A stretch of 64,000 nt of DNA, taken from the NCBI GenBank assembly GCA_013821425.1, contig JACDGV010000014.1:1-64000 (forward strand), given 5' to 3'. Every line of letters begins with the position of its first letter. The stretch's first letter is position 1. A program made the position numbers and the translations under genes. This stretch comes from Nitrosospira sp. (GTDB lineage: Bacteria > Pseudomonadota > Gammaproteobacteria > Burkholderiales > Nitrosomonadaceae). Under the pieces are notes generated by a model, which made no database searches, was not told the DNA's origin, and worked only from the letters and a program-made list of their open reading frames with translations. Of this stretch, positions 9,909 through 63,965 are shown in pieces.

Positions 9909-9933
9909 CCAACCCCGCTCTGGGGGTTTTTTT
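9909..9933 (+). terminator. rho-independent terminator
   Basis: aacccc-gctct-ggggg-ttttttt. Confidence 0.7.
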
Positions 9934-9962
9934 GTCCGTTTCTCAGTACCTTCCCCCGGTCT

Positions 9963-10892: not shown

Positions 10893-10911
10893 GGATGCAG
10901 CGGATAGATAT

Positions 10912-10926
10912 ATGAATGATATTCAT
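10912..10926. promoter_or_regulatory. candidate MetR binding site
   Basis: ATGAATGATATTCAT palindrome contains TGAA-N5-TTCA. Confidence 0.6.
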
Positions 10927-11037
10927 GGATTTTTTATTATATTTCATTTGATTCATAGATAAGTCTGCCACACAATCGTTACCTCTTGCAACTATGCTGT
11001 AATTTGCCTGCCACTGAGATATTAAGGAGAGCGCTAG

Positions 11038-39792: not shown

Positions 39793-42700
39793 CTAATGAA
39801 AATCCCGGCTTTCCACCCTGAGATTACCCAGCAAATGACTATGGTCCACCAGGTGCTTGGCAATCACGTGTTTGACTTCACTTTCACATTGCCATACGCC
39901 GTATACCGTTAAAAGCCTTGAGCTCAATATTTCATGGCGTTGTTTCCGGACAAGTTGATTCCACACCACAACATTTATTGTTCCAGTCTCATCTTCGAGT
40001 GTCACAAATACTACGCCGCTGGCAGTTCCAGGACGTTGCCGACATGTCACAATACCGGTCGTTCGAACCAGCCGTCCGGTCGGATAATTATTCAGCTCCC
40101 GTGCCGAATGCAGATTCATCCGGGCCAGCTTTGGCCGCAACAGGGCAAGGGGGTGTCTGCGCAGGGTGAGCTCCATGCTTGCGTAATCAGCGATAATTTC
40201 CTCTCCTTCCGATGCTCCGGTAATGGCTGGCAATGGCTCTCTTACCGGAGCATCTCGCATCAGATCCGATTGTTTTATATGGGACGCTACCGCCCATATG
40301 GCCTGACGCCGATGGCTTGATAAAGTGTGTAACGCATCCGAGTTGGCGAGAGCACGCATTTCTAAAGTATTCAGATATGCGCGGTTTGCCAGATCGGCCG
40401 GATTCTCAAAAGATGAAATCTTTCTTGCCTCAACAATGCGTTTGGCCGCTTTCAAGCCTACCCCTTTTACTCTATTCAAGCCTAGCCGGACATTGGGTTG
40501 TGCGGGTGGTTCGAATTGAGAAGAGCTACCTGCCTGCTCTTCTTCAAGCATGCAATCCCAATCGCTTACTGTGACGTCCACCGGCCTGACTTGAACACCA
40601 TGTCGTGTGGCGTCCTGAATCAGTTGCGAGGCGCTATAAAAACCCATGGGCAGGCTGTTCAGCATGGCGCATAAAAAGGCAGCGGGTTCGTGGCATTTAA
40701 GCCAGGCCGATACATAAACCAGCAGCGCAAAGCTTGCGGCATGAGATTCCGGAAATCCATATTCGCCAAAACCTTGGATTTGCCGAAAAATTCGTTCAGC
40801 AAATTCCCGGGAGTAACCTCGGCTTGTCATCCCATCGATTAATTTCTTATGGAAGGAGCCGAGCCCTCCTTTTCTCTTCCAGGCTGCCATGGAACGCCGC
40901 AACTCGTCTGCCTCGCCGGGGGTAAAGCCGGCGGCCAGCATTGCCAATTGCATCACCTGTTCCTGGAAGATCGGCACGCCATAAGTTCGCTCAAGAGCAA
41001 TTTCAACCCCTTTGTCAGTTCCTTCGCCTGGATAATCCGCAGTCTCCAGTCCTTGTCTGCGGCGCAGGTAAGGATGGATCATGTCTCCCTGAATCGGCCC
41101 CGGACGGACGATGGCAACTTCTACGACCAGATCGTAGAAGGTGCGAGGCCTTAATCGCGGCAGCATAGACATCTGTGCTCGGGATTCAATCTGGAAGACG
41201 CCGATAGTGTCGGCCTTGCAAATCATGTCGAATGTCGCTTTATCCTGTGGCGGAATGTCCTGCATCCGAATTGGCATTCCACGACGGGCAGAAACCAGAT
41301 CGAGCGTGCGGTGGATTGCCGATAGCATGCCCAGCGCGAGCACATCAATTTTCATCAGCCCTACCGCTGCAAGGTCGTCCTTATCCCATTGGATGATGCA
41401 GCGATCCGGCATGGCGGCGTTTTCGATGGGAACGATACGGCACAGCTTGTCACGCGAGATGACGAAGCCACCTACATGCTGGGACAAATGACGCGGAAAC
41501 CCATATAAGGCCGGGATCAGTTGAATCAGCTTCTGGATGATGGGGCTATCGGGATCGAAGCCATTTTCAATCAGCCGCGTACGAATATCCGAGGTCTTGT
41601 CCCACCAGGCAAAAGAACTGGATAACCGTTTGGTACGTTCAATATCGAGTCCCAGAGCTTTGCCGATATCCTGGACCGCCGAGCGTGTGCGATAGGTTAT
41701 TACTGTCGCCGCTATGGCGGCACGATCCCGGCCATATTTCTGATAGATATACTGAATAACCTCTTCCCGCCGCTGATGCTCGAAATCCACATCAATATCG
41801 GGAGGTTCGTTGCGCTCCCTGGAAATAAACCGCTCAAACAGCAAGCTGCTACGCTCCGGATCAATCTCGGTAATGCCCAGGCAATAGCATACTGCCGAAT
41901 TGGCCGCCGATCCGCGTCCCTGGCAAAGAATGCCTTGTGACCGGGCGAATCTTACAATATCAAATACCGTCAGGAAATAGGGCTCATAGCTCAGCTCGGC
42001 GATCAGATCCAGCTCATGTTCGATCTGTTCCCTGACCTTGGCTGAAACACCCTTTGGAAAACGCCTCGCCATTCCCTCTTCGACCATGCGCCGCAGATAG
42101 GCCGCATAGGTCTCGACTCTCCCGGATGAGCTGGCCAATTCATCCGGGTATTCATAGCGCAGCTCATCCAGCGAAAAAGTGCAGCGGGCCGCAACCGCAA
42201 CCGTCTCCCGCAGGAGTTGCGGCGGATAGATCTGCCTCAACTGCAATCTTGTACGCAAGTGCTGTTCCGCATTCGGCTGGAGCGCATAACCGCATTCGGA
42301 TAGCGGCTTGCCGAGGCGGATGGCAGTCATCGTATCGTGCAGTGGTTTATTCGAAGCATCATGCATGCTGACGTCCCCCGCGGCTAGGAGTGGCATACCT
42401 GTGATATCCGCAGCCGCGCGTATGTTCTCGAAAAGCAGGTCTTCGCCGGCATGAAGCAACAGTTCAACAGCAGTTCGGCAACGGCCGGGAAATAGCGCCA
42501 GCATCCAGCGCATGTCGTCTATCAATGAATCCTCCGCTTGGTTGGAACGGGGGATCAACAGGACCAGGCAATCCGGTAACAGCGTGAGATGAGGCGCCTT
42601 GGGACAGCTTTCAAAATCGGCGCGGCTGATACGATAAGCCCCTTTCTCGGCGCGCTGCCTCGCCAGCGTGATCAGTTCGCATAAGTTGCCGTAGCCATTC

Positions 42701-42960
42701 CGGTTCATGGCCAGGCAGACCAGCCTTAATCCATCCTCCAGGATGAACTCGCTGCCGATCAGAAGATGCAGCCCTGCTTTCTTCGCTTCCGAATGGGCCC
42801 TTACAACCCCTGCCATGGAACACTCATCGGTGATGGCCAGTGCGGCATAGTCCAGGCTTGCAGCACGTTCAACCAGCTCTTCCGGCAGGGAGGCTCCCTT
42901 GAGGAAGCTGAAGCTGGAGCGGCAATGAAGTTCAGCGTAGGCGGGAATGGAAGAATGCAT
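39793..42960 (-). CDS. dnaE2: error-prone DNA polymerase III alpha subunit homolog
   Basis: PHP domain YAELHCRSSFSFLKGASLPEELVERAASLDY; CQGRGSAANSAVCYCLGITEIDP; downstream of imuB. Confidence 0.96.
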   Translation of the reverse strand: MHSSIPAYAELHCRSSFSFLKGASLPEELVERAASLDYAALAITDECSMAGVVRAHSEAKKAGLHLLIGSEFILEDGLRLVCLAMNRNGYGNLCELITLARQRAEKGAYRISRADFESCPKAPHLTLLPDCLVLLIPRSNQAEDSLIDDMRWMLALFPGRCRTAVELLLHAGEDLLFENIRAAADITGMPLLAAGDVSMHDASNKPLHDTMTAIRLGKPLSECGYALQPNAEQHLRTRLQLRQIYPPQLLRETVAVAARCTFSLDELRYEYPDELASSSGRVETYAAYLRRMVEEGMARRFPKGVSAKVREQIEHELDLIAELSYEPYFLTVFDIVRFARSQGILCQGRGSAANSAVCYCLGITEIDPERSSLLFERFISRERNEPPDIDVDFEHQRREEVIQYIYQKYGRDRAAIAATVITYRTRSAVQDIGKALGLDIERTKRLSSSFAWWDKTSDIRTRLIENGFDPDSPIIQKLIQLIPALYGFPRHLSQHVGGFVISRDKLCRIVPIENAAMPDRCIIQWDKDDLAAVGLMKIDVLALGMLSAIHRTLDLVSARRGMPIRMQDIPPQDKATFDMICKADTIGVFQIESRAQMSMLPRLRPRTFYDLVVEVAIVRPGPIQGDMIHPYLRRRQGLETADYPGEGTDKGVEIALERTYGVPIFQEQVMQLAMLAAGFTPGEADELRRSMAAWKRKGGLGSFHKKLIDGMTSRGYSREFAERIFRQIQGFGEYGFPESHAASFALLVYVSAWLKCHEPAAFLCAMLNSLPMGFYSASQLIQDATRHGVQVRPVDVTVSDWDCMLEEEQAGSSSQFEPPAQPNVRLGLNRVKGVGLKAAKRIVEARKISSFENPADLANRAYLNTLEMRALANSDALHTLSSHRRQAIWAVASHIKQSDLMRDAPVREPLPAITGASEGEEIIADYASMELTLRRHPLALLRPKLARMNLHSARELNNYPTGRLVRTTGIVTCRQRPGTASGVVFVTLEDETGTINVVVWNQLVRKQRHEILSSRLLTVYGVWQCESEVKHVIAKHLVDHSHLLGNLRVESRDFH

Positions 42961-42968
42961 GAGGCAAG

Positions 42969-44501
42969 TTATCCAAACAGTCCTTGCAAGTACCATCTGT
43001 GGTTTTTTGCCGTGGGGTTATGTTCACGGTAGATCCATAACAATTGGCCGAGACCATTCTCCGCAATGAAATAATCGCGCGCAATCGGGGCGTCATCCCA
43101 CCAACCCGCCTCGATCCGCTCCGGTCCCGCAATCAGTTTCAATGGCGTGCCATAGACCGGTTGCACCTGCTGCTGGCGTTGCAGTTTCAGCTCTAGCGGG
43201 GTTTCGATTAACCAGGCGGGGCGGGTCAATTCCCTGGGAATGGTTTTCCATGGTGTTTCTCGGCGCGAAGCATTCTTCACCCCGCTCATTTCGCCTGTTC
43301 CTGGCGCCTCGAATCTCTGGCTGCATTCAGGACGATGGTCCGGGATAATCCTTAAACTTGTGACGGCCTGCGGACCCAGCCGGGAGGAAAGTTTCTCGAT
43401 AAACCGGTTCAGCGAAGTAGCCTCCGATTGCGCGGTCGGGAAGAGTTCCATATTGGCGTTTGCACCTGCTGTTATTTCATCCGCTATCAACGCCAATTCA
43501 CAAACCGGAGCCACCAGTTTTGTTCGCCCCAGACGTTCGCGCAGCAAAATCTTTAAATGGCCCGGATCGCAGCTTTGTTCTGAAAGCCGTACACTTATAG
43601 ACGTAGACTGGCACGGCTGCCGCAGGGAATATTCGTGGTGCAGAATGAATGAGAACGTCGAAACCTCAGCATGACGTGAAGTTAGCCAGCCGCACATCTG
43701 GTCGATCATTCGCTGCGCCGGCACCAGCAGCAGTTCCACGCTTTCAACCAGCGCCATCAACCTCATCTTTTGTTCAAAGGATTCTGGTGTTTCAAACCAT
43801 CTTTGCGGATCGGGCGAATCTCCGTAGGCACGATCCATTTCTATCAGCAGGTCCGGGCCAAACCGCCGTGCTATTCCATCGCGGGGCAACCGCTGCAAAT
43901 CAGCCAAGGTTCTGCAGCCTATGCCGCCAATGACTTCAAGATGAGGCTGGGCCGATTCCAATAAACTGACGGGCAAGGAGTCGAGCAATGAGCGGAATTT
44001 GGCGCCTGTTCCATTGATGACGGTTCGCGATGGCGCGGACCGCGCGAGGAGCCATGCCCCTTTTGCAGTGGGAGCAACCCCTACGCAGAGTTGCAGGCCT
44101 TGCGCAGACACCGCCCGATTGAGTAACTGGCATAGCTTCTTCAGGCCGCCAAATAACTTCAGGCTTGCGGAAACCTCGGCAATCAGACCGCTGCATTGCA
44201 ACACAATATTGGGCGTGAAATGCAATGCGGCATACGCAGCTTCATGCAGCGCTTTCATTTCTTCGTTGGGATCATGCTCCACCACTACCAGGTCGGGTAA
44301 CAGAGCCAAGGCACTGGCCAATGGCTGATGAGCTGTAACTCCCCGTTTCCGCGCCGGCTTGTTGGCCTGCCGGATATACACCTGATTACCCCTGCGGACA
44401 GTTACCGCCATCGCAGGAGCGAGAGCCGCAGGAAAGCGGCGTTCTATCCAGTCAAGCGATAATGCCGGGCAATGGAGAGCGATCCACAGCATAGGAGTCA
44501 A
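42969..44501 (-). CDS. imuB: ImuB, Y-family polymerase-like protein
   Basis: MLWIALHCPALSLDWIERRFP; context imuA-imuB-dnaE2. Confidence 0.93.
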   Translation of the reverse strand: MTPMLWIALHCPALSLDWIERRFPAALAPAMAVTVRRGNQVYIRQANKPARKRGVTAHQPLASALALLPDLVVVEHDPNEEMKALHEAAYAALHFTPNIVLQCSGLIAEVSASLKLFGGLKKLCQLLNRAVSAQGLQLCVGVAPTAKGAWLLARSAPSRTVINGTGAKFRSLLDSLPVSLLESAQPHLEVIGGIGCRTLADLQRLPRDGIARRFGPDLLIEMDRAYGDSPDPQRWFETPESFEQKMRLMALVESVELLLVPAQRMIDQMCGWLTSRHAEVSTFSFILHHEYSLRQPCQSTSISVRLSEQSCDPGHLKILLRERLGRTKLVAPVCELALIADEITAGANANMELFPTAQSEATSLNRFIEKLSSRLGPQAVTSLRIIPDHRPECSQRFEAPGTGEMSGVKNASRRETPWKTIPRELTRPAWLIETPLELKLQRQQQVQPVYGTPLKLIAGPERIEAGWWDDAPIARDYFIAENGLGQLLWIYREHNPTAKNHRWYLQGLFG

Positions 44502-45226
44502 CAGTAGGCTAAAGTGGGGCGGGATGCGACCGGGCTGGAGAAGGAGCCTATTTGGGGGAGTTCAATGTAGATCGGCAAAGCAGTCGGGGCACCGCGGCGT
44601 TTCAGCAGGCACAAGGAGAGGGTGTTAGCAAAAGTATGCCGCCGAGCTGAACCGAGCAATATTCTTAGCGGGGCTGCGGAGGGCTCGAATTGCGCCCTTG
44701 CCGGCCTGAACAGGAAAGCCAGGCCAGCGGCAGATCGCGCAATGATCTGCAACTTGCGCGTCATTTGCTGGCTTGCCTCGGGTAGCCAGCAAATGACGGC
44801 TCCAAAGGCGGCGCTCCTGATGCCTTGCTCAAGTACCCACAATCGCTCGCCAGGTTTGTGAACCCTGACAATCACAATCCGGCGGCTATCGATGTTCAGG
44901 CCTTCCCACGCATGTATGTAAGGAATATAAGGAGGGGCCACCAACAGAATATTCCCTTCCTTCCGGGTGATCTGCTCCAGCGGTCGGCTCAATAAACTTA
45001 TTTCCCCCAGTCCTTCCACCGGCAGCAACAACTCGGTGAGATTGCGGGTAGGCCATCCCCCGCCGGGCAACTCGTTATCCAGTTCATCAAAGCCACTGCG
45101 AACCACCGGATCGGTGGAGAATTCCAATGCATTGCCTCGCCATAGCTTGCCCTTGAACCGCGCTTCGATCTGCGAAAGCGAAAGCGGCCCAGAGGATACT
45201 GAGGGTAAGGAAACAGGCATCGGCAT
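44498..45226 (-). CDS. imuA: ImuA, translesion synthesis-associated RecA/SulA-like protein
   Basis: FDELDNELPGGGWPTRNLTELLLPVEGLGEISLL; context. Confidence 0.9.
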   Translation of the reverse strand: MPMPVSLPSVSSGPLSLSQIEARFKGKLWRGNALEFSTDPVVRSGFDELDNELPGGGWPTRNLTELLLPVEGLGEISLLSRPLEQITRKEGNILLVAPPYIPYIHAWEGLNIDSRRIVIVRVHKPGERLWVLEQGIRSAAFGAVICWLPEASQQMTRKLQIIARSAAGLAFLFRPARAQFEPSAAPLRILLGSARRHTFANTLSLCLLKRRGAPTALPIYIELPQIGSFSSPVASRPTLAYC

Positions 45227-45242
45227 GGCGAAAATCTCATCA

Positions 45243-45866
45243 TTACCGGTTAGGGTTGAGGCGATATCCGGAAGTAGGGGCTTTTCGAAACAGGCCAACA
45301 TAAAGCCCGTAGATTTCCAGCTTCTGCTCGGGCCGGATGGACGGATAATCCCTGCTTTGTCTCTCGTTGCGCGCCTCGAGGTAATAGCCTTCCTTATCCC
45401 TGGCGAGGACTTTCAGGGTAAATTCATTATCCACGATTGCCAGGACGACCTGACCGGGCAAGGCTGAATTACTGCGCTCGATAATCACCATATCGCCCTC
45501 CAGAATTCCCAGATCCATCATTGAGTCGCCTTTGACGGGGAACAGAATGGTCCGGGAGGGCTTCTCAATCAGATAATCATCAATTCGCAGCAATTCAGGC
45601 TGAACATCGGAAGCCTGTTGGGGCAATCCCGCCCGGATCACATGCCCGACCGTTCGTTCGAAGAAGCGGGGCCCGGGACGCAGCCGATTGCCTGGCCCGG
45701 TTTCTAGAAAGTCTTCTTCCTTTAAACGCTGCACGATCTGATGCGTCCAGGAACGCGCCTTCACGTTCCACAGCGCGGACAATTGGGTGGTTGAGGGGAT
45801 GATTCTTTCCCGGGCGTAGTAATCCTGAAGTTTGCCCAAGTAAGAAAAAATGTCGAGCTGTTGCAT
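45243..45866 (-). CDS. lexA2: LexA/S24-family repressor
   Basis: C-terminal FPVKGDSMMDLGILEGDMVIIERS...GQVVLAIVDNEFTLKVLARD autoprotease signature; heads imuAB-dnaE2. Confidence 0.9.
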   Translation of the reverse strand: MQQLDIFSYLGKLQDYYARERIIPSTTQLSALWNVKARSWTHQIVQRLKEEDFLETGPGNRLRPGPRFFERTVGHVIRAGLPQQASDVQPELLRIDDYLIEKPSRTILFPVKGDSMMDLGILEGDMVIIERSNSALPGQVVLAIVDNEFTLKVLARDKEGYYLEARNERQSRDYPSIRPEQKLEIYGLYVGLFRKAPTSGYRLNPNR

Positions 45867-45949: not shown

Positions 45950-45981
45950 AAAAAAAACGGCCATCAGTTATCGATGGCCGT
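45950..45981 (-). terminator. rho-independent terminator of the multicopper oxidase genes
   Basis: minus strand acggccatc-gataact-gatggccgt-tttttttt. Confidence 0.85.
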
Positions 45982-46013: not shown

Positions 46014-48839
46014 TTAGTGAAGTGCGTAAGGGTTTTGCTGCTTCGTCGTCAGTTGCGTTTTCCATTCGTCAGGTAGATTCTGAACCCAGCCGTTATAGAT
46101 ATTGGGAATAGCAAGAATGCCCTGGCCGCCATATCCCGCCAAGCCGCTGACGACATCATCGGTTTGCGTATTTCCATTGCTTACCAGGGAAACCCGTCCC
46201 GCGACCATGGCGTCCGAAAGGTTTCCATCGTTGTTGGGATCGACGTCAACCACGATGAGCTCATTGGAGAACTTGCTCGTGACATAGGCATAGTACCCTC
46301 CTCCTTTCTTGGCTCCGAAATTAGCCCCATGGCACCCCGGATCGCAAGGCAGCATCTTTACTACGGTATCCTCGGTGATACTGCCTTTTGCCGCATCAAT
46401 GATGAGTATCGATCCGCCCGTATTTGCAAGCACCACGGCTTTCCCGTCGGGGGAAACGGGTATCTGGATGGGAAGTATGCCGACGGTGGCTTGTCCGTCT
46501 CCGTCACGGTCCACAATGGTCCCGTCGATGGGGTTATAGTCCGCAATGAGGTTGATGGTCTTTTTCAAGGTTCCATCCTTATTGATCACGCTCACGGTGT
46601 GATGCAACAGGTTGGCGGCATAGAATTTGCTGGAATCCGGCATCATGCCGATGGCAATGGGGTGAGCGCCCGGGGCAGAGCCTCCCGTGGGAACCCTTTC
46701 CAGGATGGCGCCACTGTCGGTGTCATAAAACCCCACGTCATTGGTAAAGATGTTTGGCGTGATGATCTTGCTCCCATCCGTGCTGACCCAGTGACCGTGC
46801 GGGTTGGTGGAGAGTTGGCCCCGCTGCTGTGTTGGCATCATCTGGCTGATCTCGGTTGTTCCGGCCAGGATGATGGACATGCCATCTTCGCCATTATTGC
46901 TGACCGAGAGATCGTCGTTATCCGGACGAGTCATGACATGAGCGGGAGCCTCGCCTACCTGGATGTTTTTGATCAACGCGCCTGTTCTCTGGTTAATCAT
47001 GGCCAGCTTGTTATCAAACCACTGGGTCTGGTAAACAATCGACTGATCCCGGTTGGTCCACATATTGTGGGGATTATTCATATTGATCTGCGGCAGGGCG
47101 ATCTTGCGTGCCACTTTCCAGGTGGCTGCGTCAATTACCGTAATCGTCCCGGGCTTAGTCTTTCCGGCGGTTTTTTCAAACTGGGTATCGATCCAGACCT
47201 CGCCCACACCGGCAATAGCTGGGGGGGTAGGCGGTGTCAAGGCCACGTCGTTGCCGTATCGGGCGATCAGGACGTCCGACAGGTTTGCGACTGCCCCGCC
47301 AGTGATACGGACATCAACAGCGGGATAGGTTACCTTCCAGGGCGTGGCAGAGGTGTAATCCTGCCAGTTGTTGGGGGCGGTGGCGACGAAGAACGTTCTC
47401 AGCAAGCGTGTGGCAAGGTCGCTGCTCGTGGGAAGATTTACAATGCCCGTGGCCAGATCGATGGTTTCGCCAAGGTCAAGGCCGTCGGTTTCCGGGTCAT
47501 CCACAATGACTGCGCCGAACATGTAGGGATGCACCTTGCATGTGAACACGTACAAGCCGGGTGTAGTCAGCTTGACGATACCGCCGCCTTTGTAGGCCCT
47601 GGTCTGGTCAAAGGGCATGGACGCATGTTCTATGGCTGCGGTTCCCCGACCTCTGCTTTTACCTTTACCCTGGTTGGAAGGGTGCCCATTGGAGGGATCG
47701 CCCGCCCCGCTGGGCCACAGCAGGCCGGTGATAGTGTGCACTGTGTTCGTTTCGGACATGATGAAGTTCACGCTGCTGCCCGGCGGAATCACTTCCAGCG
47801 ACCGTGTGCCGCCAGTAATGCTGAATATGGTGTCGCCCCGGGCGCTCCTGAACCAACTTCCCGGTTCGTCCGAGATCACGAAAGTGACAAGGCCGGGGTC
47901 ATCGCTCGCATTGCCGAAAATGGCGCCATAGGGAGAAGCGCCCGCGACGCTGTTGCCCATTCCTTTATTCGGGCCGTTCGTGGCGTCGACTCTAAAACTG
48001 CCATGCATGCCCGCTTCCATGTGGGAAAACAGGTGACAGTGGTACTGCCAGTTGCCGGGACCCACGCCGGTCCCTGCTCTGATGGTGAAGGTATGACTAT
48101 CGGAAATGTCTTCCAGTAACTTGGTGTCGATAACGCTATTTGTTCCAGGTTCCAGCCACCGATGCGCGTGCAGGTGGAAAGTATGACCCGGCCCTACCGA
48201 CAGGACATGAAATCTGACGATGTCATTCTCGACAGCGCCGAGAACCGGGTTTGTCCACAGCGGGGTTTCCGTTCCGGCTTTGGATATTTCTGTTGCCCAG
48301 AAGGTCGAACCGACCATGAACAGCACATACTGCTTGTCTAGTTCAGACGCATCGACTGATTTGAGAGCGCCGTCGCCGTCGACGAAGCGCTCTACCTTTC
48401 CGTCCGCCCTGTCAACCACGATAGCGCCAAACAGGCCAAGCAGTTCCTGTCCCTCGCCGTAGTATGGGTAGGCGCCAGTTTTGGTCGCGGTGAACGTGTA
48501 GCTCAACGTTCCTCCATTCGGGGCCGCCTTTTCGGCGATTTTGTCCGACAGGCCGGGGACCCTGAAACCCGCCGGTTTATCCGTATTGTTGGTGACCGTC
48601 ACACTAACGGTATCGCCCTGTTTTACGAAAAGAGTAGGCCCCGGGATAACCGCCTCGGCGTCATCTCCCCTTGTGTAGCCATACTGGCCGTTGGGTAATA
48701 CCACGGCCGACAGCGCGAGGTTATGATTAGTTGCTGATTGCGCCAGGGGTGGAGCCATTAGCAGCATGGCTCCAAGCAGCAGCGCGAACGCCGTAGCTGT
48801 TGTGATAGCGGGTGTTTGCAGTCTAAAAATATTGCTCAT
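46014..48839 (-). CDS. multicopper oxidase-like protein with domain-2 ligands only, extra cupredoxin and C-terminal beta-propeller-like region
   Basis: signal peptide; HTFHLHAH and HCHLFSHMEAGM; cupredoxin HTI...CKVHPYM; YVTN-like repeats in C-terminal half. Confidence 0.85.
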   Translation of the reverse strand: MSNIFRLQTPAITTATAFALLLGAMLLMAPPLAQSATNHNLALSAVVLPNGQYGYTRGDDAEAVIPGPTLFVKQGDTVSVTVTNNTDKPAGFRVPGLSDKIAEKAAPNGGTLSYTFTATKTGAYPYYGEGQELLGLFGAIVVDRADGKVERFVDGDGALKSVDASELDKQYVLFMVGSTFWATEISKAGTETPLWTNPVLGAVENDIVRFHVLSVGPGHTFHLHAHRWLEPGTNSVIDTKLLEDISDSHTFTIRAGTGVGPGNWQYHCHLFSHMEAGMHGSFRVDATNGPNKGMGNSVAGASPYGAIFGNASDDPGLVTFVISDEPGSWFRSARGDTIFSITGGTRSLEVIPPGSSVNFIMSETNTVHTITGLLWPSGAGDPSNGHPSNQGKGKSRGRGTAAIEHASMPFDQTRAYKGGGIVKLTTPGLYVFTCKVHPYMFGAVIVDDPETDGLDLGETIDLATGIVNLPTSSDLATRLLRTFFVATAPNNWQDYTSATPWKVTYPAVDVRITGGAVANLSDVLIARYGNDVALTPPTPPAIAGVGEVWIDTQFEKTAGKTKPGTITVIDAATWKVARKIALPQINMNNPHNMWTNRDQSIVYQTQWFDNKLAMINQRTGALIKNIQVGEAPAHVMTRPDNDDLSVSNNGEDGMSIILAGTTEISQMMPTQQRGQLSTNPHGHWVSTDGSKIITPNIFTNDVGFYDTDSGAILERVPTGGSAPGAHPIAIGMMPDSSKFYAANLLHHTVSVINKDGTLKKTINLIADYNPIDGTIVDRDGDGQATVGILPIQIPVSPDGKAVVLANTGGSILIIDAAKGSITEDTVVKMLPCDPGCHGANFGAKKGGGYYAYVTSKFSNELIVVDVDPNNDGNLSDAMVAGRVSLVSNGNTQTDDVVSGLAGYGGQGILAIPNIYNGWVQNLPDEWKTQLTTKQQNPYALH

Positions 48840-48877
48840 TTATATTTAACCTCTCGATGATTTATTTTCAATGTTCA

Positions 48878-49900
48878 TTAAGGAGCGCCGCCGGTGACGT
48901 TGAAGCTGCCCCTCATGCCCATTAATTTGCGTGAAAAATTCGCGGTCATATAGTTCGTGCTGGCTAAGGCCTTTATGGTAAAAGCATGATTCTCAAGAGG
49001 GCCGATATCTTTTGCGATAATCATTTGCTTCGTTCCGGGATCGACCCACTGATAGCCCTCGAGTTGAAATCGATTCAAATAGGTGCCCATGGCGATAAGA
49101 TGGAACCTGACGTTGTCACCGCCATTCGCGGTCAGTGCCGGGTTGGCTCCGAGCGGGGTCTGTTGCTTGCTCGCGCCGTCTATTTCCATTCCCCAGAAAG
49201 CATCGTCAGCCAGGTAAAGCACGTAATCTTTTTTAATACTGTTAACTGGCACGCTTGCGATACTGCTACCGTTACTTCCAGTCACTGCGCCTGATGCCGG
49301 ATTGACGATGACGGCGCCAAAAAGGCCCCTGTCTTCCGAGCCGTTGTGAGTTTCAAAATTGTGATCATGGTACGGCCAGGACCCCGCCGTGCCCGGAGCC
49401 ACGTCCCAGAGGTAGGTGTAGAAGCGTCCTCCATGATCGGGATAGGCGCCCTCATCTTCGATTTTATTGATAATCTTGAGAGAGCCGTCGCTCAGTATGT
49501 TGTAATGGATACCATGCACATGGACGCTGACTTGCTGATCGGGGCTCATGGTAATGCCGTTCCGAATGGTGAGCCTGACCTTGTCGCCTTCCGTAAGAAT
49601 AATCGTCGGTCCTGGAATCGTGGCCTGTGTACTGTAGCGGGAAGTAATGTTAACGCCATCGACCTGGTGTTCAATCATGCGATACGCGAGCAGGCCGGCT
49701 TCGGTTTCTTCCGCTGTCATTTCAATCCGGTGGTTAGCAGCGACGCCATGCCCCGAAGGCAGAAAAAACATTGCCAGAAACAGCGTGGATGGAATCGTAA
49801 GTCCTATCCAAAAGCGGCTGAATCTGTCTGCAGTTGAAGAGGTTTGAAGATCGCCAGAAGCAAAAAACTCCCCCACAGCATGGGTATGTTGATACTTCAT
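48878..49900 (-). CDS. two-domain multicopper oxidase-like protein with domain-1 ligands only
   Basis: signal/TM segment; VHVHGIHY and WPYHDHNFETH retained; domain-2 motifs absent; SD aaggag upstream of 49900. Confidence 0.85.
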   Translation of the reverse strand: MKYQHTHAVGEFFASGDLQTSSTADRFSRFWIGLTIPSTLFLAMFFLPSGHGVAANHRIEMTAEETEAGLLAYRMIEHQVDGVNITSRYSTQATIPGPTIILTEGDKVRLTIRNGITMSPDQQVSVHVHGIHYNILSDGSLKIINKIEDEGAYPDHGGRFYTYLWDVAPGTAGSWPYHDHNFETHNGSEDRGLFGAVIVNPASGAVTGSNGSSIASVPVNSIKKDYVLYLADDAFWGMEIDGASKQQTPLGANPALTANGGDNVRFHLIAMGTYLNRFQLEGYQWVDPGTKQMIIAKDIGPLENHAFTIKALASTNYMTANFSRKLMGMRGSFNVTGGAP

Positions 49901-50350
49901 TTTTAGAAGGCTCCTTAGGTTATGAGTTTGTTTAGGTAATACAGAGCCGGGGCTTATATCAATTTTCCCCGGTTTGGGCATTCACGTTTGAATTCTTCAG
50001 ATCCGATCGGAACGTCGCCACAGCTCGATACAAGTGTGACTGCGGCATCCGGGGAAGAGGGCAGGGTACTTGCCTCTATCCTGCTGCCATGGCGCCACCG
50101 CTTTTCGGCCGCTGATTATGGGTTAACGGCGCCTGCATACCATGTGAAGGTTGTCCTTTTTTTGCCGGATAAGATGTACCTGGTTTTTCAGGCTAATAGC
50201 AGTACATCTGCACCGAGACAATGTGGTGAGTGTCGATTGCTTGGCTGATTTTTTTGCGGCAGTCGTATTTCGGCGAGAGTCCAGGGTTGGGGCCCTGATA
50301 CAGGAGGCTTGCAAGCGGGAAACCGGGCTTGCCCGGGAACATAGGGGCAG

Positions 50351-51055
50351 CTAGCTATAAATTTGCGCAGGAGGTGCAGATGTAGAGTTTGTCCCACCCA
50401 CCCGGTGGTGGTGGAGCTTGGCAAACATGAAAAGATCAAAGCGGTTCGTGATCTCCAGCTTGCTGAAAATGGACGTCAGGTGGTTGCGCAGGGTCTGTTC
50501 GCTAATGCACAGATTTTGAGCAATCTTCTTGTTTGAACCGCCCGCGTCAGTTGCGAACGCACTGATGATGGCGCGTTCTTTTCGCGTAAGGGTGGTAATT
50601 TTTTTCGTGATCGAATCGGTGGGCTTTTGCCTCGCGTCTACAAACTTGACGAAGATGCGTCCAGTCGTGCCCCGGCCTAGCCAGAGTTCGCCAGCATGAA
50701 CCTTCTCGATGGCTTTGATAATATTCTGCGTGGGGTCCTCTTTATAGACCACGCCACGCGCTCCATTGAGTACCGTTCCGTCAATGGCGGCCTGATCGCG
50801 GGTTTCGGTAAAGATGATGACATGGGTGTTCCCTTCGCTCAGCAAATCCGGGATAAGTTCGGTGACCTTTTCAATGCCGAGATAAAGGTCGAGTAAAATA
50901 ACTTCGGGCTTCTTCTCCCTGACTAGCCGGGACGCCTCCGCGCCATTGATTGCCTTGCCGACGACCTTCATTCGCGGCGACTCGTTGTTTATGAGCTTTT
51001 CCAGTCCCCAAAGAACAATCTGGTGGCTGTTGACGAGCAGGACGGGGATGGACAT
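50351..51055 (-). CDS. NarL/LuxR-family response regulator
   Basis: receiver VILLDLYLG; HTH LTRKERAIISAFATDAGGSNKKIAQNLCISEQTLRNHLTSIFSKLEITNR. Confidence 0.88.
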   Translation of the reverse strand: MSIPVLLVNSHQIVLWGLEKLINNESPRMKVVGKAINGAEASRLVREKKPEVILLDLYLGIEKVTELIPDLLSEGNTHVIIFTETRDQAAIDGTVLNGARGVVYKEDPTQNIIKAIEKVHAGELWLGRGTTGRIFVKFVDARQKPTDSITKKITTLTRKERAIISAFATDAGGSNKKIAQNLCISEQTLRNHLTSIFSKLEITNRFDLFMFAKLHHHRVGGTNSTSAPPAQIYS

Positions 51056-51669
51056 GGAAGAAGGTGGAGATATAAAGTGTTTCCCGCCAGCTTTGCGTGC
51101 GTGGGTAAGGAAAGCATAGTATAAATCTTTACAGTCTGCAAAATAGTTGTCCGTCTGTTTAGCGGAAAACGGACGTAATTTCCGGAGGTTGCGTAAGATA
51201 TTTTTGCGTTTGAGGGTATGATGAGCTCCCTGGGCCACAGTCAACGGCTCTTCAGGGCAATAATTCAGATGGAAAAGTAGGGTCCGCCGAAACGCGCGCG
51301 GCGAGTATGGCCTGGCGTGCAGGCTTGTTCAGGCGTTATCGGAACTCCAGCGGGAGTCTGTGGCGAGTTTGGTATTGTGGGGAACTTTATCCTCTTCGCG
51401 CATTCTCAAGGGCCTTGCTCGTGCTTGGAGAATCAGGCTTTGAGAACAAAACATGTATCCGGTTTTGGGACAGGGAGACCCTGAATTGTTCGTGGCAGAC
51501 ATTGCGATCGGATTTTCATTCCCGATATTGCTTGCGGCATCGTTTTGAAGCTACTATCATCAGCCGGATTTTCGGGATTCAATCTCCTATCTGGTTATTT
51601 TTCGTAATCGGTTATTTTTCTTAATCGTATTGTCACGCAACACTCCTATACTCTGCGTTGTGAACATCC

Positions 51670-52128
51670 ATGGTTAGGTTCCGGAATACAGAAACGAGGC
51701 AGCGGCGAGTCCGGGTGCGTTCCCGGGCGGCGTATGGATTTACCCTGCTCGAACTGCTGGTCGTCATGGTCATCATCGGATTGCTCGCGGGCTATGTGGC
51801 ACCGAGGTATTTCTCGCAGGTGGGAAAATCGGAGGTGAAAGCGGCACAAGCGCAGATCGATGCTCTCGAAAAGGCACTGGACCAATACCGCCTGGACACA
51901 GGGAACTACCCGCCTACCGAGCAGGGGCTGGCGGCCCTGATGACACGGCCTGCCAATGAGCCGAGATGGCAGGGGCCATACCTCAGGAAGACAGCGCCGC
52001 CTGATCCGTGGGGGCGGCCGTATGTCTATAAGTACCCCGGAGAGCGCACAGAGTACGATTTATATTCCTACGGCAAGGACGGCCAGCCCGGCGGTACGGG
52101 CGAAGCAGCGGATATCACGAACTGGTAG
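51670..52128 (+). CDS. gspG: type II secretion major pseudopilin GspG
   Basis: GFTLLELLVVMVIIGLLAGYVAPRYF; NYPPTEQGLAALMTRP; WGRPYVYKYPG. Confidence 0.95.
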   Translation: MVRFRNTETRQRRVRVRSRAAYGFTLLELLVVMVIIGLLAGYVAPRYFSQVGKSEVKAAQAQIDALEKALDQYRLDTGNYPPTEQGLAALMTRPANEPRWQGPYLRKTAPPDPWGRPYVYKYPGERTEYDLYSYGKDGQPGGTGEAADITNW

Positions 52129-52134
52129 GTTGCT

Positions 52135-53319
52135 ATGCGCTATGAAGTGAAAGCTATGCTTTCCGGACAGGGCACGGTATTTCTGCAACTCGATGCCGAT
52201 AGTGCGGAGGATGCCCGTCTCCAGGTCGTAGCCCAGGGAGGGATGGTTCTAGAGGTCCGGCGACGATTTTACGGCTGGATGCCAAAGCCACGCCTGCGCT
52301 TTCCGCTGGCACACTTCAGTCAGGAATTGCTTTCCCTGCTGACGGCAGGACTCAGCCTGGTCGAGAGCATCGAGACGCTGGCCGACAAGGAGCAGGACGC
52401 CGGCGTGCGGAAAATTATCGAGGAGCTGCGAGCGCGGCTATATGAGGGTGTTACTTTTTCCCGCGCGCTGGAGTTTTTTCCGCAAGCATTCCCCCCACTC
52501 TATGTGGCGACCGCAAGGGCGAGCGAGCGCACGGGCGACCTGCCTGAAGCGTTGACACGTTTTATAACCTACCAGACGCAGATGGATCTGGTGCGCAAGA
52601 AATTAATCGGCGCGTCCATTTATCCTGTTCTCCTGCTGGTGATTGGACTGCTGGTGGGGTTATTCCTCCTGGTTTTCGTGGTACCCAGGTTCAGCGCAAT
52701 CTACGAGGATGCCGGGACCGATTTACCCTGGCTTTCCATGCTTCTGATTCGTTGGGGGCATCTCGTGCATGATCACGGATGGCACCTGGCGGGGATCGCG
52801 GCAGCTGCACTGGGTCTCTTTATTTATGGCATAAACCGACCCTTATTCAGATCATGGGTGGCACAGCGGCTATGGCATATTCCCGCCATCGGCGAGCGTA
52901 TGCGAGTTTATCAGCTCGCGCGGTTTTACCGGACACTGGGCATGTTATTACGAGGAGGCATCCCGGTGGTAAAAGCTCTGGAAATGGTTAGTGGCCTCCT
53001 GCAGCCGCACTTCCGGCCCAGGGTCCACGCGGCTGCCACCCTCATTCGCGAAGGGAGAACCATCTCCAGTGCCATGGAGGCGGAAGGGCTGACCACTGCT
53101 GTCGGGAGCCGCATGTTGCGCGTTGGCGAACGAACCGGCCTCATGGGGGAAATGATGGAACGCATCGGTAATTTTCACGATGAAGAAATCGCGCGCTGGG
53201 TCGAGTGGATGACCAAACTGATAGAGCCATTGCTGATGGCGGTAATCGGCGGCGTGATCGGAGGAATCATTATTCTCATGTATATGCCAATATTCCAGTT
53301 GGCGGGAAGCGTCGGTTGA
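52135..53319 (+). CDS. gspF: type II secretion inner membrane protein GspF
   Basis: FSQELLSLLTAGLSLVESIETLADKE; ARASERTGDLPEAL; GERTGLMGEMMERI. Confidence 0.95.
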   Translation: MRYEVKAMLSGQGTVFLQLDADSAEDARLQVVAQGGMVLEVRRRFYGWMPKPRLRFPLAHFSQELLSLLTAGLSLVESIETLADKEQDAGVRKIIEELRARLYEGVTFSRALEFFPQAFPPLYVATARASERTGDLPEALTRFITYQTQMDLVRKKLIGASIYPVLLLVIGLLVGLFLLVFVVPRFSAIYEDAGTDLPWLSMLLIRWGHLVHDHGWHLAGIAAAALGLFIYGINRPLFRSWVAQRLWHIPAIGERMRVYQLARFYRTLGMLLRGGIPVVKALEMVSGLLQPHFRPRVHAAATLIREGRTISSAMEAEGLTTAVGSRMLRVGERTGLMGEMMERIGNFHDEEIARWVEWMTKLIEPLLMAVIGGVIGGIIILMYMPIFQLAGSVG

Positions 53320-55016
53320 GCCAGGTGATAGAGGCTGCTTCGGTATCGCCCGCTCCCGTAAGCATTGATGCGTATCTGCTTGCCACGGCGCGCGCAGAGG
53401 CATCCAGCCAGGGTATTCCAGTAATCAGCTATCTGGAGGAAAGATACGGCTGCCTGCCAGATCAACTGATGGCGGAGCTCGGTCGGCTGCTGCGCATGCC
53501 CGTGCTCGCGATGGAGGATTTGCGCACAACCAGCCCGGTATATGAGGTGCTGCCGTTTAATGAAGCCGTTGGTCGGGAATGTGCGTTATTACGCAATGGG
53601 GAGAAATTTGTTCTTGCCGTGGCTAACCCGTTCTCGCCAAACCTGAGGGCCTGGGCCGGCAACCGTATCGATGTCGCCGCGCAATGGCATCTGGTCCATC
53701 CAGCTGATTTGAAAGCATTTTTCGCTCAGCAGGAGCAGACAATGCGGGCGATGGACACCTTGCTTCCAGCGGCGCAGCATGGTCCTAAGCAAGCGGGCGA
53801 GGAAGATCTCTCCCTGAAGACAATCAATGAAGGAACCAGCCCGGTAGTGCGGCTGGTGCATTCGACCCTGTACGATGCGCATAAATCGCAGGCAAGCGAT
53901 ATTCACCTCGAGATGGTAACCGGCGCATTATCGATCAAATACCGGATCGACGGCGTTCTGAGCATGATCGGCGTAGTGCAGGGCGCAGATCTGGCGGAAC
54001 AGGTCATTTCGCGTATCAAGGTAATGTCTGATCTGGATATCGCGGAGCGGCGGGTGCCGCAGGACGGCCGTTTCAAGGTTTCCATCCAGGGGCGGGAAAT
54101 CGATTTTCGCGTGTCCATCATGCCGAGTATCTTCGGAGAAGATGCCGTGTTGCGTATTCTCGACCGTCAGGCGCTCGCCGATCACGTAGAGGGGCTGACA
54201 CTGAATCATCTCGGCTTCGACCAGGTTACCATGGCCAGTTTCCGGCGTCTCAGTTCAGAGCCGTACGGAATGTTGCTGGTGACGGGCCCTACCGGCAGCG
54301 GTAAAACCACGACGCTCTATGCGGCCATCTCCGAAGTGAATACGGGTCATGACAAAATTATCACGATTGAGGATCCGATCGAGTATCAGCTGCCTGGCGT
54401 CCTGCAGATACCCGTCAACGAGAAAAAGGGACTCACCTTTGTACGCGGGTTGCGCTCGATTCTGCGCCACGATCCAGACAAAATCATGGTTGGTGAAATT
54501 CGTGATCCCGAGACCGCGCAGATCGCTATCCAGGCGGCATTGACGGGACACCTGGTGTTTACCACGGTCCATGCCAATAACGTGTTCGACGTCATCGGCC
54601 GTTTTTCCCATATGGGAGTGGACCCCTACAGTTTTGTTTCAGCCTTGAACGGAATCGCCGCCCAGAGGCTGGTTCGCCTGCTATGTACACACTGCGCAGT
54701 GGAAGAGCGTCCTGAAGAGCAGCTGATTGCGGACTCCGGAATCGATCCCGAATCTGCCGGCACGTTCCGGTTCCGTACGAGCAAAGGGTGCGGCCAGTGC
54801 CGGGGAAGTGGTTATCGGGGACGGAACGCGATAGCTGAAATGCTGGTGTTGAACGATGAGATTCGTGAGCTCATTGTGGCCCGCGAGCCCATACGGCGAA
54901 TAAAGGAGGCGGCGAAGGGCAATGGCACCCGTTTCCTGCGCGACGCAGCGCTGGACATGGTAAGGAGTGGGCAAACGAGTTTACAGGAGGCCAATCGTGT
55001 CACCATTGTGGCGTGA
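53316..55016 (+). CDS. gspE: type II secretion ATPase GspE
   Basis: GMLLVTGPTGSGKTTTLYAAI Walker A; ILRHDPDKIMVGEIRDPETAQIAIQAALTGHLVFTTVHAN; probable TTG start overlapping gspF stop. Confidence 0.95.
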   Translation: MSQVIEAASVSPAPVSIDAYLLATARAEASSQGIPVISYLEERYGCLPDQLMAELGRLLRMPVLAMEDLRTTSPVYEVLPFNEAVGRECALLRNGEKFVLAVANPFSPNLRAWAGNRIDVAAQWHLVHPADLKAFFAQQEQTMRAMDTLLPAAQHGPKQAGEEDLSLKTINEGTSPVVRLVHSTLYDAHKSQASDIHLEMVTGALSIKYRIDGVLSMIGVVQGADLAEQVISRIKVMSDLDIAERRVPQDGRFKVSIQGREIDFRVSIMPSIFGEDAVLRILDRQALADHVEGLTLNHLGFDQVTMASFRRLSSEPYGMLLVTGPTGSGKTTTLYAAISEVNTGHDKIITIEDPIEYQLPGVLQIPVNEKKGLTFVRGLRSILRHDPDKIMVGEIRDPETAQIAIQAALTGHLVFTTVHANNVFDVIGRFSHMGVDPYSFVSALNGIAAQRLVRLLCTHCAVEERPEEQLIADSGIDPESAGTFRFRTSKGCGQCRGSGYRGRNAIAEMLVLNDEIRELIVAREPIRRIKEAAKGNGTRFLRDAALDMVRSGQTSLQEANRVTIVA

Positions 55017-55827
55017 TCGGATCCAGATTTTTTTTGCTCCTGACCGTGTGGATCTGGTGCGTGTGCACAGAGGGATAAAACCCGAGCCTCCCGTCCGGCT
55101 TTCCGTGGAATGCGAGCACAAGCCGGGCGCTCCTGCATGGGCAGCGCCGCTCGAGCAACTGGACCAGATGAGCGGTACCGGTGGCGGTCACGGCGCGGAG
55201 GTCAGTATTACTATTTCCAACTGTTTCGTACGATATGTCGTTTTAGCTGCACAGCAAAATATCGCAAACCCTGCCGAGTTGCACGTGCTGGCCGATTTTC
55301 ACACGCGCGAGGTTTATGGAGAACAGGCAGCCGATTGGGTAACAAGCGTGAGTGCCTGGGATCCGTCGGGAGGAGGGGTTTGTGCAGCGATGGAGCGCGC
55401 TCTGCTCGAAGGGCTGGAAGAAGTTGTCACCCGCCGCAAGATGAGATTGAAATACGTGGAGCCCTATCTTGCTGGTGCGTTCGACCACTGGCACAAACGC
55501 TTCGATGACCGGCGCGCATGGTTCGCCTTGGTCGAAAGCGGCCGTCTTTGCCTTGCTTCGCTGGAGAATGGGGCCTGGAAGCGCATAAGCAACCAGAGGA
55601 TATTACAGAACGTGGAAGACGAGCTCCTTGCCGCGCTTGACCAGGAGGTGATGCTTTTTGCGGGGCGCAAGGAAAACGTTGAAACTGTCTACTTGTTTGC
55701 GCCCGAGCATCCGGAACTGGTGTTGCCAGAGGATTGCGGCTGGCGCGTTGCATTGTTGTCCACAGAAAGTCTGCCTGCGCCCGCGCATTATCCATCCGCG
55801 GCCATAACCTTGGAAAGATTGAGCTGA
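54997..55827 (+). CDS. GspL/PilM-like assembly platform protein
   Basis: position after gspE; ASKHA-like composition, GTG start. Confidence 0.5.
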   Translation: MSPLWRDRIQIFFAPDRVDLVRVHRGIKPEPPVRLSVECEHKPGAPAWAAPLEQLDQMSGTGGGHGAEVSITISNCFVRYVVLAAQQNIANPAELHVLADFHTREVYGEQAADWVTSVSAWDPSGGGVCAAMERALLEGLEEVVTRRKMRLKYVEPYLAGAFDHWHKRFDDRRAWFALVESGRLCLASLENGAWKRISNQRILQNVEDELLAALDQEVMLFAGRKENVETVYLFAPEHPELVLPEDCGWRVALLSTESLPAPAHYPSAAITLERLS

Positions 55828-56402
55828 TGCACAGGCTCAGGCTGAGATTTCCCGACAGTGGCGGAGAAGCGCGGCAAGCCGGCGCTGCTTTGATATTGCT
55901 GGGCGTAGCTGCCCTCGCCGGGGTGCTGTATGAGTTTAATGCGGCGATGAACGAGGTGGCCTACTGGGATATGCGCATTGCCAGCATGGATCGACGGATG
56001 CAGCGCACGATTACGCCGCAGAGCCCTTCAAGGCATGTCAGCCCCGTAGTAAGGCAGGAGGTGAGGCAGGAGGTGAGGCAGGAGGTGAGGCAGGAGGTGA
56101 GACAGGAGATAAAAAAAGCTAACGGGGTAATGAACGAGATCGATTTGCCCTGGGGTGCGCTTTTCGATTCCGTCGAATACGCATCCAGTCACGACGTGGC
56201 TCTGTTATCGCTTCAGCCGGATCCGTCCGGCCGTACGATGCGAATTGGCGGAGAGGCAAAGAACATTCCGGCGATGCTTGATTTCGTCGGCGCCCTGGAA
56301 CGTGAGCCTGTACTCAGGGACGCTCATCTGCTCAAATATGAAATCAAGCGGGACGATCCCTATCGGCCCGTCATTTTTTCTCTTGTCGCATCATGGACCT
56401 GA
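55827..56402 (+). CDS. PilN-like assembly protein with VRQE repeats
   Basis: single TM followed by repeat region; positional. Confidence 0.5.
   Translation: MHRLRLRFPDSGGEARQAGAALILLGVAALAGVLYEFNAAMNEVAYWDMRIASMDRRMQRTITPQSPSRHVSPVVRQEVRQEVRQEVRQEVRQEIKKANGVMNEIDLPWGALFDSVEYASSHDVALLSLQPDPSGRTMRIGGEAKNIPAMLDFVGALEREPVLRDAHLLKYEIKRDDPYRPVIFSLVASWT
56049..56108 (+). repeat. five 12-bp in-frame tandem repeats encoding VRQE
   Basis: GTRAGGCAGGAG x4 plus GTGAGACAGGAG. Confidence 0.95.
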
Positions 56403-56971
56403 CCTTTTTGAAAAACATCTTGCTGCGTATGCGGTGGCAAGCCGAACGGTTGGGTACTGCCGGAAAAATCGGCTTCGGACTGTGCATCTTTTCCTTCGTA
56501 TTTTTTATTGCAGCCGTGCTGCCGCGCCAGGCGGAGTCGACTGCGCTCATGGTCCAGGCGGAAGCAATGCAGGCGCAATTGCGAGCGGAACCCGCATCGG
56601 AAAGCGGCGGGGCTCCCCGAAAGCTGCAAGGCTATCCCGCCTTGCAGGCTTTTTACGCTTTTTTTCCCAACATGGACTCCACGCCGTTCTGGATCCAGGA
56701 AGTGGTGCAGGTCGCGACCCAGCACGGCGTGGAGATCGCCGGCACTGATTATCGCATGGTGCGAGAGAAGGATGTGAATCTGGCGCGCTACGAAATGCTG
56801 GTGCCGGTCCGGGGGAAATATCCGCAACTGCGAGGGTTTATTGCTGATGCCTTGCGCGCGGTGCCGGCGATGGCACTGGTCGATGTCGCGATCAAACGGG
56901 AGGGCGTCGAATCCGAATTGCTGGATGCGAGCCTCAAATTCAATCTCTATCTGAGCGAAGGAAAGAGATGA
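56393..56971 (+). CDS. PilO/GspM-like assembly protein
   Basis: single N-terminal TM; positional. Confidence 0.5.
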   Translation: MDLTFLKNILLRMRWQAERLGTAGKIGFGLCIFSFVFFIAAVLPRQAESTALMVQAEAMQAQLRAEPASESGGAPRKLQGYPALQAFYAFFPNMDSTPFWIQEVVQVATQHGVEIAGTDYRMVREKDVNLARYEMLVPVRGKYPQLRGFIADALRAVPAMALVDVAIKREGVESELLDASLKFNLYLSEGKR

Positions 56972-57531
56972 AAGGGGTGGCTGCGCAAGGGCGAAGCCGG
57001 ACATTATGGCTGGGGGCTGCATTGCTGGCGACTCTCCTTGCTGCCCAATGGGTGAGCGGAGAAGACGGTCGCGCGGATACGGTGCAACCGGATGAAGAAA
57101 CTGGTCCGCGAAAAGAAACGCGCGCACCGGAAACGCGCGCACCGGAAACTGAAATGACGAATGCTGCAGAGCAATTGGAGTTAGAGCTGGAGCTGGAGCG
57201 TTTGGAGCGGAGAAAATTCAGCGCGCAGGCAGGCGACATTTTCCGTCAGCAATCGTGGGCGCCGCCTCCACCTTCCCCATCTTCCCTGAAACCCCCGCCG
57301 CCGCCCCCGCCGCCCCCGCTGCAGTTCAAATATCTTGGCAAGGTGACTGCGGGCGACGAAACTCAGGTGTTCCTTGCCCTGGCTGAACGCAATTACATCG
57401 TCAAGCCCGGAGACACGGTCAACAGCCAGTACCGTATGGATGAGGTGAATGACCACTCTATTACATTTACTTACCTCCCGCTGAACGCGACGCAAACGCT
57501 GGCAACGGCACAAGCAGGGGATATTCCATGA
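56968..57531 (+). CDS. GspC/PilP-like protein with polyproline linker
   Basis: KYLGKVTAGDETQVFLALAERNYIVKPGDTVNSQYRMDEVNDHSITFTYLPL; PPPPPPPPLQ linker. Confidence 0.6.
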   Translation: MKGVAAQGRSRTLWLGAALLATLLAAQWVSGEDGRADTVQPDEETGPRKETRAPETRAPETEMTNAAEQLELELELERLERRKFSAQAGDIFRQQSWAPPPPSPSSLKPPPPPPPPPLQFKYLGKVTAGDETQVFLALAERNYIVKPGDTVNSQYRMDEVNDHSITFTYLPLNATQTLATAQAGDIP

Positions 57532-63047: not shown

Positions 63048-63965
63048 ATGAAAATGAATTTTAGACTCAAGGCGCTGGCAGCTGCCACGATCATGGCAAC
63101 CTCGATGCCGCTCTCTGCTGCCATGGACGGCGCTGATTCAGGCAATGGCAGCCTGTTGGTTAACTTTCGTTCCTACGTCGGTTCTCCCACCTCGGGAAAT
63201 AATGATATCTCTGCCGTGTTCGATCTCGGCGTCAATATGAACGACGTAATCGGCTGGAATGGGACTGCCGGCTTTAATCGCACCTGGGATTTGAGCACAG
63301 GCCTGATGAGCGGCACCGGCATTTCCGGTAGCCAAGCGATCGGGAGCTATGGCGGTACCTGGAACGATCTGTTCAACGGCGTCGCCGCGGCAGACCAGCC
63401 GAAAATCGAGTACAGCGTCATGGCGCTGGATAACACCGACAAGACGATTCAAGGCGGCGGATCGCGTTATCTGACAACCGCGAACGTAACCAATTTTCCC
63501 TCGTTGCCCAACGCCAATCTGAATGGTTTTGACAACATGAACCTGTACGTTAACGCCAACAACTCCCGCGGCACCCACGCTACTGAAGCCAATGGCGCCA
63601 GCATCGCCACGCCGACGGATGATCCCAACAGCTACTTTGCGGCGATCAATGGTTTTGGGCAAGGCGATAACTGGCTGACCAAAACAACCGCTGACACCAC
63701 CAAGACGCTGGATACCGAGCAGAGCTTCTGGTATTTGGCCACCAGTTCGCTTACTTCTCATCATCAGGCGATCAAGACTCCCTTTGGTGTTGATCTGAAT
63801 GGCGACGGCATCATGGATGCGAACGAGTTCAGTAAATGGTCCGTGAATGCCGACGCAGGCACGATAAGTTTTGCAGCGCCGATTCCCGAGGCTCAGACCT
63901 GGGCCATGATGCTGGCCGGGCTGGGGATGATCGGCATGATGGTCCGCCGCCGCGTCAACGTCTGA
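63048..63965 (+). CDS. PEP-CTERM-like sorted protein with EF-hand-like loop
   Basis: signal peptide; DLNGDGIMDANE; C-terminal IPEAQTWAMMLAGLGMIGMMVRRRVNV. Confidence 0.88.
   Translation: MKMNFRLKALAAATIMATSMPLSAAMDGADSGNGSLLVNFRSYVGSPTSGNNDISAVFDLGVNMNDVIGWNGTAGFNRTWDLSTGLMSGTGISGSQAIGSYGGTWNDLFNGVAAADQPKIEYSVMALDNTDKTIQGGGSRYLTTANVTNFPSLPNANLNGFDNMNLYVNANNSRGTHATEANGASIATPTDDPNSYFAAINGFGQGDNWLTKTTADTTKTLDTEQSFWYLATSSLTSHHQAIKTPFGVDLNGDGIMDANEFSKWSVNADAGTISFAAPIPEAQTWAMMLAGLGMIGMMVRRRVNV

Follow-up and report, generated by a model that had tools for sequence, protein, structure and literature searches.

Two adjacent genes in ammonia-oxidising bacteria probably encode the obligate subunits of one divided multicopper oxidase

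Two adjacent genes of Nitrosospira sp., which we call A and B, encode exported proteins in which the oxygen-reducing copper site of a multicopper oxidase is only half preserved, a different half in each, so a working enzyme very probably requires both proteins to assemble with each other. Both genes lie in the window, the 64,000-nucleotide stretch of contig JACDGV010000014.1 that was analysed (Table 1). We hold with good confidence that they are obligate subunits of a single exported oxidase with a shared trinuclear centre, and that this enzyme arose from a homotrimeric type-B ancestor by duplication, loss and fusion. A first-pass annotation of this DNA had proposed that neither protein builds the centre alone and that the pair is probably an obligate hetero-oligomer; of the checks set by that annotation, three were carried out here, and none overturned the proposal. 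The ligand split and the strict pairing of the genes give this proposal strong comparative support without structural demonstration: the AF2 models are of single chains, and no complex has been predicted or measured. The chemistry expected is ordinary multicopper-oxidase chemistry, and the novelty is that the site is divided between two gene products.

Table 1. Features of the A-B locus, numbered along the window
Feature	Position	Strand	Remarks
Gene A: exported protein of two cupredoxin domains, the first live and the second dead	48878..49900	minus	340 aa
Gene B: exported protein joining a dead cupredoxin domain 1 to a live domain 2, a type-1 cupredoxin and a beta-propeller	46014..48839	minus	941 aa
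A-B intergenic gap with GAGAGG ribosome-binding site	48840..48877	minus	38 bp
Intrinsic-terminator-like hairpin after B, 10 bp stem, T7	45957..45981	minus	consensus match only
A domain 1 HVHG, supplying the first trinuclear His pair (SLAC H102/H104)	49511..49522	minus	residues 154-157 of the long reading frame
A domain 1 HDH (SLAC H156/H158)	49361..49369	minus	residues 205-207 of the long reading frame
A domain 2 degenerate site LNRFQLEGYQW	49046..49078	minus	
A domain 2 degenerate site YMTANFSRKLMGM, without HCH and without type-1 Cys	48914..48952	minus	
B domain 1 degenerate site AGFRVPGL	48549..48572	minus	
B domain 1 degenerate site GAYPYYG (within GAYPYYGEG)	48456..48476	minus	
B domain 2 HTFHLHAHRW: type-1 H219, trinuclear H222 and H224	48156..48185	minus	
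B domain 2 HCHLFSHMEAGM: trinuclear H267/H269, type-1 C268, H273 and M278	48006..48041	minus	
B third cupredoxin, own type-1 ligands H368, C434, H437, M440	47490..47903	minus	invariant in 87/87 relatives
B beta-propeller, YVTN/lactonase-like, with H591, H634, H681, H683, H837	46080..47222	minus	His invariant in 87 relatives
LuxR-type response regulator, possible regulator of A-B	50351..51244	minus	family beside A in many loci

Gene A precedes gene B on the minus strand. Both reading frames and every motif previously quoted from them are present in the window; the strand had not been named. The longest reading frame of A spans 48878-49981, and its likeliest start is M28 at 49900, behind AAGGAG, which agrees with the coordinate first given for A. 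The arrangement is bicistronic: no terminator was found in the gap between A and B (48840..48877), and the hairpin lies solely 3' of B, where, judged by consensus match only, it may mark the end of an A-B operon. The N-termini of both proteins are hydrophobic and were read by eye as Sec signal peptides.

The motifs first quoted from B are there, but the extent of its oxidase part needs correction: it covers only about residues 35-300 of a four-part fusion, whose extra type-1 cupredoxin and His-rich propeller had been missed. A and residues 35-300 of B each match multicopper-oxidase domains, and the best PDB matches of A and B by sequence are two-domain laccases, which are also the best fold matches of their AF2 models (mean pLDDT 77 for A and 89 for B). 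In the fold search with the B model, a YVTN propeller and a three-cupredoxin NirK rank beside the two-domain laccases. With two cupredoxins in A and three in B, the six-domain single-chain criterion (ceruloplasmin) is not met.

Type-B two-domain oxidases, or small laccases (SLAC, Ssl1, SgfSL, CjMCO), share with A-B the fold, the order of motifs, the type-1 site in domain 2 and the recruitment of trinuclear ligands from domain 1 and domain 2. In these enzymes the trinuclear centre is built at a subunit interface, where domain 1 of one chain faces domain 2 of the next (PMC6650940; PMC13151041). The known enzymes are homotrimers with all ligands in each chain and three centres per trimer, whereas A-B divides the ligand halves over two gene products, one of which, B, also carries a fused cupredoxin and propeller. 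One criterion of type B, a pair of cupredoxin domains like those of multicopper oxidases, is fulfilled by A and by residues 35-300 of B, and type-1 ligands are found in domain 2 and not in domain 1 (H219, C268, H273 and M278 in B; A lacks the Cys). A further criterion, all eight trinuclear His in one polypeptide, is met in 18/18 intact relatives and not here, where four are in A and four in B. Homomers of A or of B cannot supply eight His. SLAC has ten copper-binding His, and mutating any single one of them dramatically reduced activity (PMC3918160, also the source of our SLAC numbering).

The ligands were tabulated from one joint alignment of about 80 A and about 75 B orthologues. In the A orthologues the four trinuclear positions of domain 1 are all His; the four of domain 2 have no conserved His, and Asp, Asn or Thr stands where the type-1 Cys belongs. 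The B orthologues keep all eight domain-2 ligands (four trinuclear His and the type-1 Cys, His, His and Met), save one frameshifted and one incomplete copy; both His of HxHG are absent and the last His of HxH is never present, the first still being found in 42 sequences. Because every complete sequence of A and B shows the complementary split and none of the 18 intact relatives does, all 18 having every ligand in one chain, it is more than chance, and the original claim that the ligands are divided by domain is borne out. A search for alternative His ligands in the empty domains left that claim standing, as the dead halves have lost surrounding loops as well as ligands. The core of B domain 1 is down to about 65 residues, where intact relatives have 90 and A has 89-108, which makes this dead domain about 25 residues shorter, and A domain 2 has lost about 5 residues ahead of the HCH position. 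In 77-78 of 80 A sequences the two second-sphere residues found after HxHG in SLAC, a Tyr and an Asp, are still present.

The two genes are also observed together. With A as query, 85,462 species genomes yielded 72 loci, nearly all in Nitrosomonas, Nitrosospira and Nitrosovibrio; co-conserved pairs, for which the first-pass annotation had suggested looking, occur throughout these genera, including in N. europaea (L088). B directly follows A wherever the contig leaves room, damaged or gapped assemblies aside, and flanking genes vary among lineages while A-B stays together. Relatives with one gene and not the other would have counted against obligate subunits. Among the 126 genomes of the family, A occurs in 74 and B in 73, adjacent and in the same genomes, and the sole genome with A and no normal B is a MAG (N. 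communis mag.23, L082). There, at 9800-12970, A is intact and B is without most of its oxidase part, having lost domain 1 and part of domain 2, and is out of frame past the signal peptide; this is a deletion or a misassembly, and assembly error is not excluded. Apparent A-only and B-only loci are explained by contig ends, by a scaffold join filled with N (L102), by a frameshift (L045) and by this damaged MAG copy. Several Nitrosomonas have two or three A-B pairs, with up to three per genome (G142), and tandem A-B-A-B arrays were seen at two loci (L074, L076). A-B contigs were also seen in MAGs labelled Nitrospirae, Chromatiales, Pseudomonadales and Saprospiraceae (L087, L093, L100, L108), by either horizontal transfer or mis-binning. 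No relatives were found in viral contigs, and a viral or mobile origin was rejected on that ground.

Both genes are under purifying selection. Across seven genome pairs, dN/dS is about 0.10-0.18 for A and about 0.05-0.12 for the oxidase part of B, and it is low in all four halves, the dead ones included. Duplicated genes often decay, and the MAG with the damaged B could be taken to suggest that one of the two genes is a pseudogene in decay and that the product of the other functions with a partner encoded at another locus. We find this highly improbable: the frames are open, dN/dS is well below 1 in both genes, the pairing is kept across the family, and the other two-domain oxidase detected in the same genome (L003) is distant, with only about 30% identity and a complete site of its own. 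L003 may be of the same sort as the Nitrosomonas blue copper oxidase (NcgA type, type-C), a two-domain oxidase of the same bacteria. Type-C two-domain oxidases carry their type-1 copper in domain 1.

Nor do we think it likely that the pair has ceased to be an oxidase and keeps its half sites for copper storage or delivery, with A as a His-rich cupredoxin, B as a type-1 electron carrier and no trinuclear centre. No activity is known for A-B, and Nitrosomonadales have many copper-handling proteins (PMC6769254), both of which leave room for such a role. What has been retained, however, is exactly the trinuclear set, divided by domain, in strictly paired genes; B keeps two type-3 His flanking the type-1 Cys and A keeps the second-sphere Tyr and Asp, none of which a storage protein or carrier needs.

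The C-terminal half of B was compared with 87 relatives, comprising B, C paralogues and methanotroph-type relatives. With four more type-1 ligands and five propeller His that never vary, this half could in principle make B complete alone, with His of its own third cupredoxin or propeller replacing the missing domain-1 ligands and A serving as an accessory chaperone. Yet the same residues are equally invariant in relatives, among them those at loci L122 and L031, that stand beside an intact oxidase or have no oxidase domain (the C paralogues) and have no such need, which indicates that the extra His of B are not recruited to complete its half site. There is also no HxHG/HxH pair among them. We rejected this explanation and give it hardly any credence. 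Since the propeller His sit at the starts of inner strands in the secondary structure, a metal site in the propeller channel is a possible inference, and a cupredoxin-propeller family with such a possible copper site may be undescribed. B resembles NosZ and the clade III lactonase-type N2O reductase in combining a propeller and a cupredoxin with several His. A NosZ-like reading of the propeller was discarded: the match (about 27 bits against a cut-off of 700) is non-specific, and E. coli and other controls match too. The CuA criterion of two Cys is not met, there being a single Cys (C434 in FTCKVHPYM, 87/87 relatives), and neither is that of Cu nitrite reductase (NirK; 16-24 bits against the TIGR02376 equivalog cut-off of 296).

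If A and B are obligate subunits of one oxidase, the trinuclear O2-reducing centre would form only where domain 1 of A (HxHG and HxH) meets domain 2 of B (HxH and HCH). Copper binding and the electron path are inferred: electrons would be taken up by the type-1 copper in domain 2 of B and would then cross the Cys-His bridge to the trinuclear centre. B domain 1 and A domain 2, the dead halves, would persist as structural ring members, and the tethered type-1 cupredoxin and His-rich propeller of B would probably bind and deliver the electron donor. The stoichiometry is an inference from ring geometry. Contact between domain 1 of A and domain 2 of B would occur exactly once in an A2B or AB2 ring, giving one complete centre per trimer, which means that a 3:3 complex would have to consist of a pair of trimers, or form some other ring, and would not be one trimer with three sites. 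Ceruloplasmin and other six-domain multicopper blue proteins likewise have six cupredoxin domains and one trinuclear centre, the other two interdomain sites having been lost (PMC3600357); the A/B trimer would show the same economy, with separate subunits where ceruloplasmin is a single polypeptide. On the fuller picture, a hetero-oligomeric oxidase of ammonia oxidisers with half sites on paralogous subunits after duplication and complementary loss, and with the fused cupredoxin and His-lined, possibly metal-bearing propeller as its electron-input module, our confidence is evenly balanced. Oxidation or handling of copper(I) is a reasonable first guess for the substrate, but a weak one, resting on the copper-dependent ammonia or methane oxidation of the carriers and on the position of one intact locus (L123) near a gene that resembles, by eye, a heavy-metal RND efflux adaptor.

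The unsplit state persists in relatives. A class-wide sample of 369 genomes contained two from outside the order that encode one two-domain oxidase and, in a gene of its own, a cupredoxin-propeller protein, and further intact loci were found in relatives of one of those two genomes and on Methylocystis rosea plasmids. The order, oxidase and then cupredoxin-propeller gene, is that of the corresponding parts of A-B, and all intact oxidases checked (18/18) carry every ligand. The PmoA/AmoA family is present in 11/14 intact-oxidase genomes tested, so most are methanotroph-like. The same family search gave no match in the source draft genome (G000), which its relatives mark as that of an ammonia oxidiser, or in another ammonia-oxidiser draft, presumably, we infer, because multicopy amo operons were left unassembled. 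The intact pair (on Methylocystis plasmids and in pmoA-bearing gammaproteobacterial genomes) includes the closest relatives of A, at 38-43% identity; its oxidase is likewise the closest relative of the oxidase part of B (41-44% identity) and its cupredoxin-propeller that of the C-terminal part of B (48-49%). It differs from A-B in being unfused and unsplit, with one oxidase gene that has all ligands. From this arrangement in the closest relatives we infer that the gene for an intact homomeric type-B two-domain oxidase was duplicated, that each copy lost the ligand half kept by the other, and that one copy became fused to the downstream cupredoxin-propeller gene. A maximum-likelihood tree recovers A, B and the intact family as three monophyletic groups, each at 100, and places A with the intact family at 95/80; A and B as one clade is not rejected (p-AU 0.387). 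The branching order is unresolved, with long branches, and a rooted gene tree could not tell which of the two, A or B, is the closer to the intact form.

No description of a hetero-oligomeric two-domain multicopper oxidase or of the A-B gene pair was found in the open-access full-text literature, subscription papers being outside our scope, and no described oxidase was found with a four-part copper relay like the one proposed here. In phage-infected N. europaea two multicopper-oxidase genes rise together, with log2 fold changes of 6.16 and 6.14 (PMC13356812); their identity with A and B is unproved, as that text gives no locus tags. If our reading is true, A-B is a new quaternary type among multicopper oxidases, a subunit-based parallel to the one-centre economy of ceruloplasmin and a natural case in which an active site at a homotrimer interface became that of an obligate heteromer through reciprocal ligand loss. 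Because the unsplit state still exists in relatives, the evolutionary steps are open to reconstruction and assay one by one. The reading would also mean that methane oxidisers and ammonia oxidisers, N. europaea among the latter, have in common an uncharacterised exported copper oxidase; both groups depend on copper for their key step. Labelling A or B alone as a multicopper oxidase in annotation is misleading.

The genes around the pair do not settle its function, as none of the shared neighbours is decisive. The family of the LuxR-type response regulator has a member close to A in 47 loci, in most cases immediately upstream; it is common at ammonia-oxidiser A-B loci, where the neighbours otherwise differ. 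Intact loci have an ECF-sigma gene and folE (L123, L142) or, at about five loci, a winged-helix regulator. In the window the A-B pair also adjoins type II secretion genes (51670-59789), and a cupredoxin-propeller paralogue without oxidase domains lies within a type II secretion cluster in Nitrosospira genomes that have neither A nor B (L031, L033, L034, L035). Directly downstream of B, genes at 39793-45866 read by eye as a LexA-like regulator, ImuA, ImuB and DnaE2, an SOS mutagenesis cassette, and 63048-63965 encodes a protein with a PEP-CTERM sorting signal.
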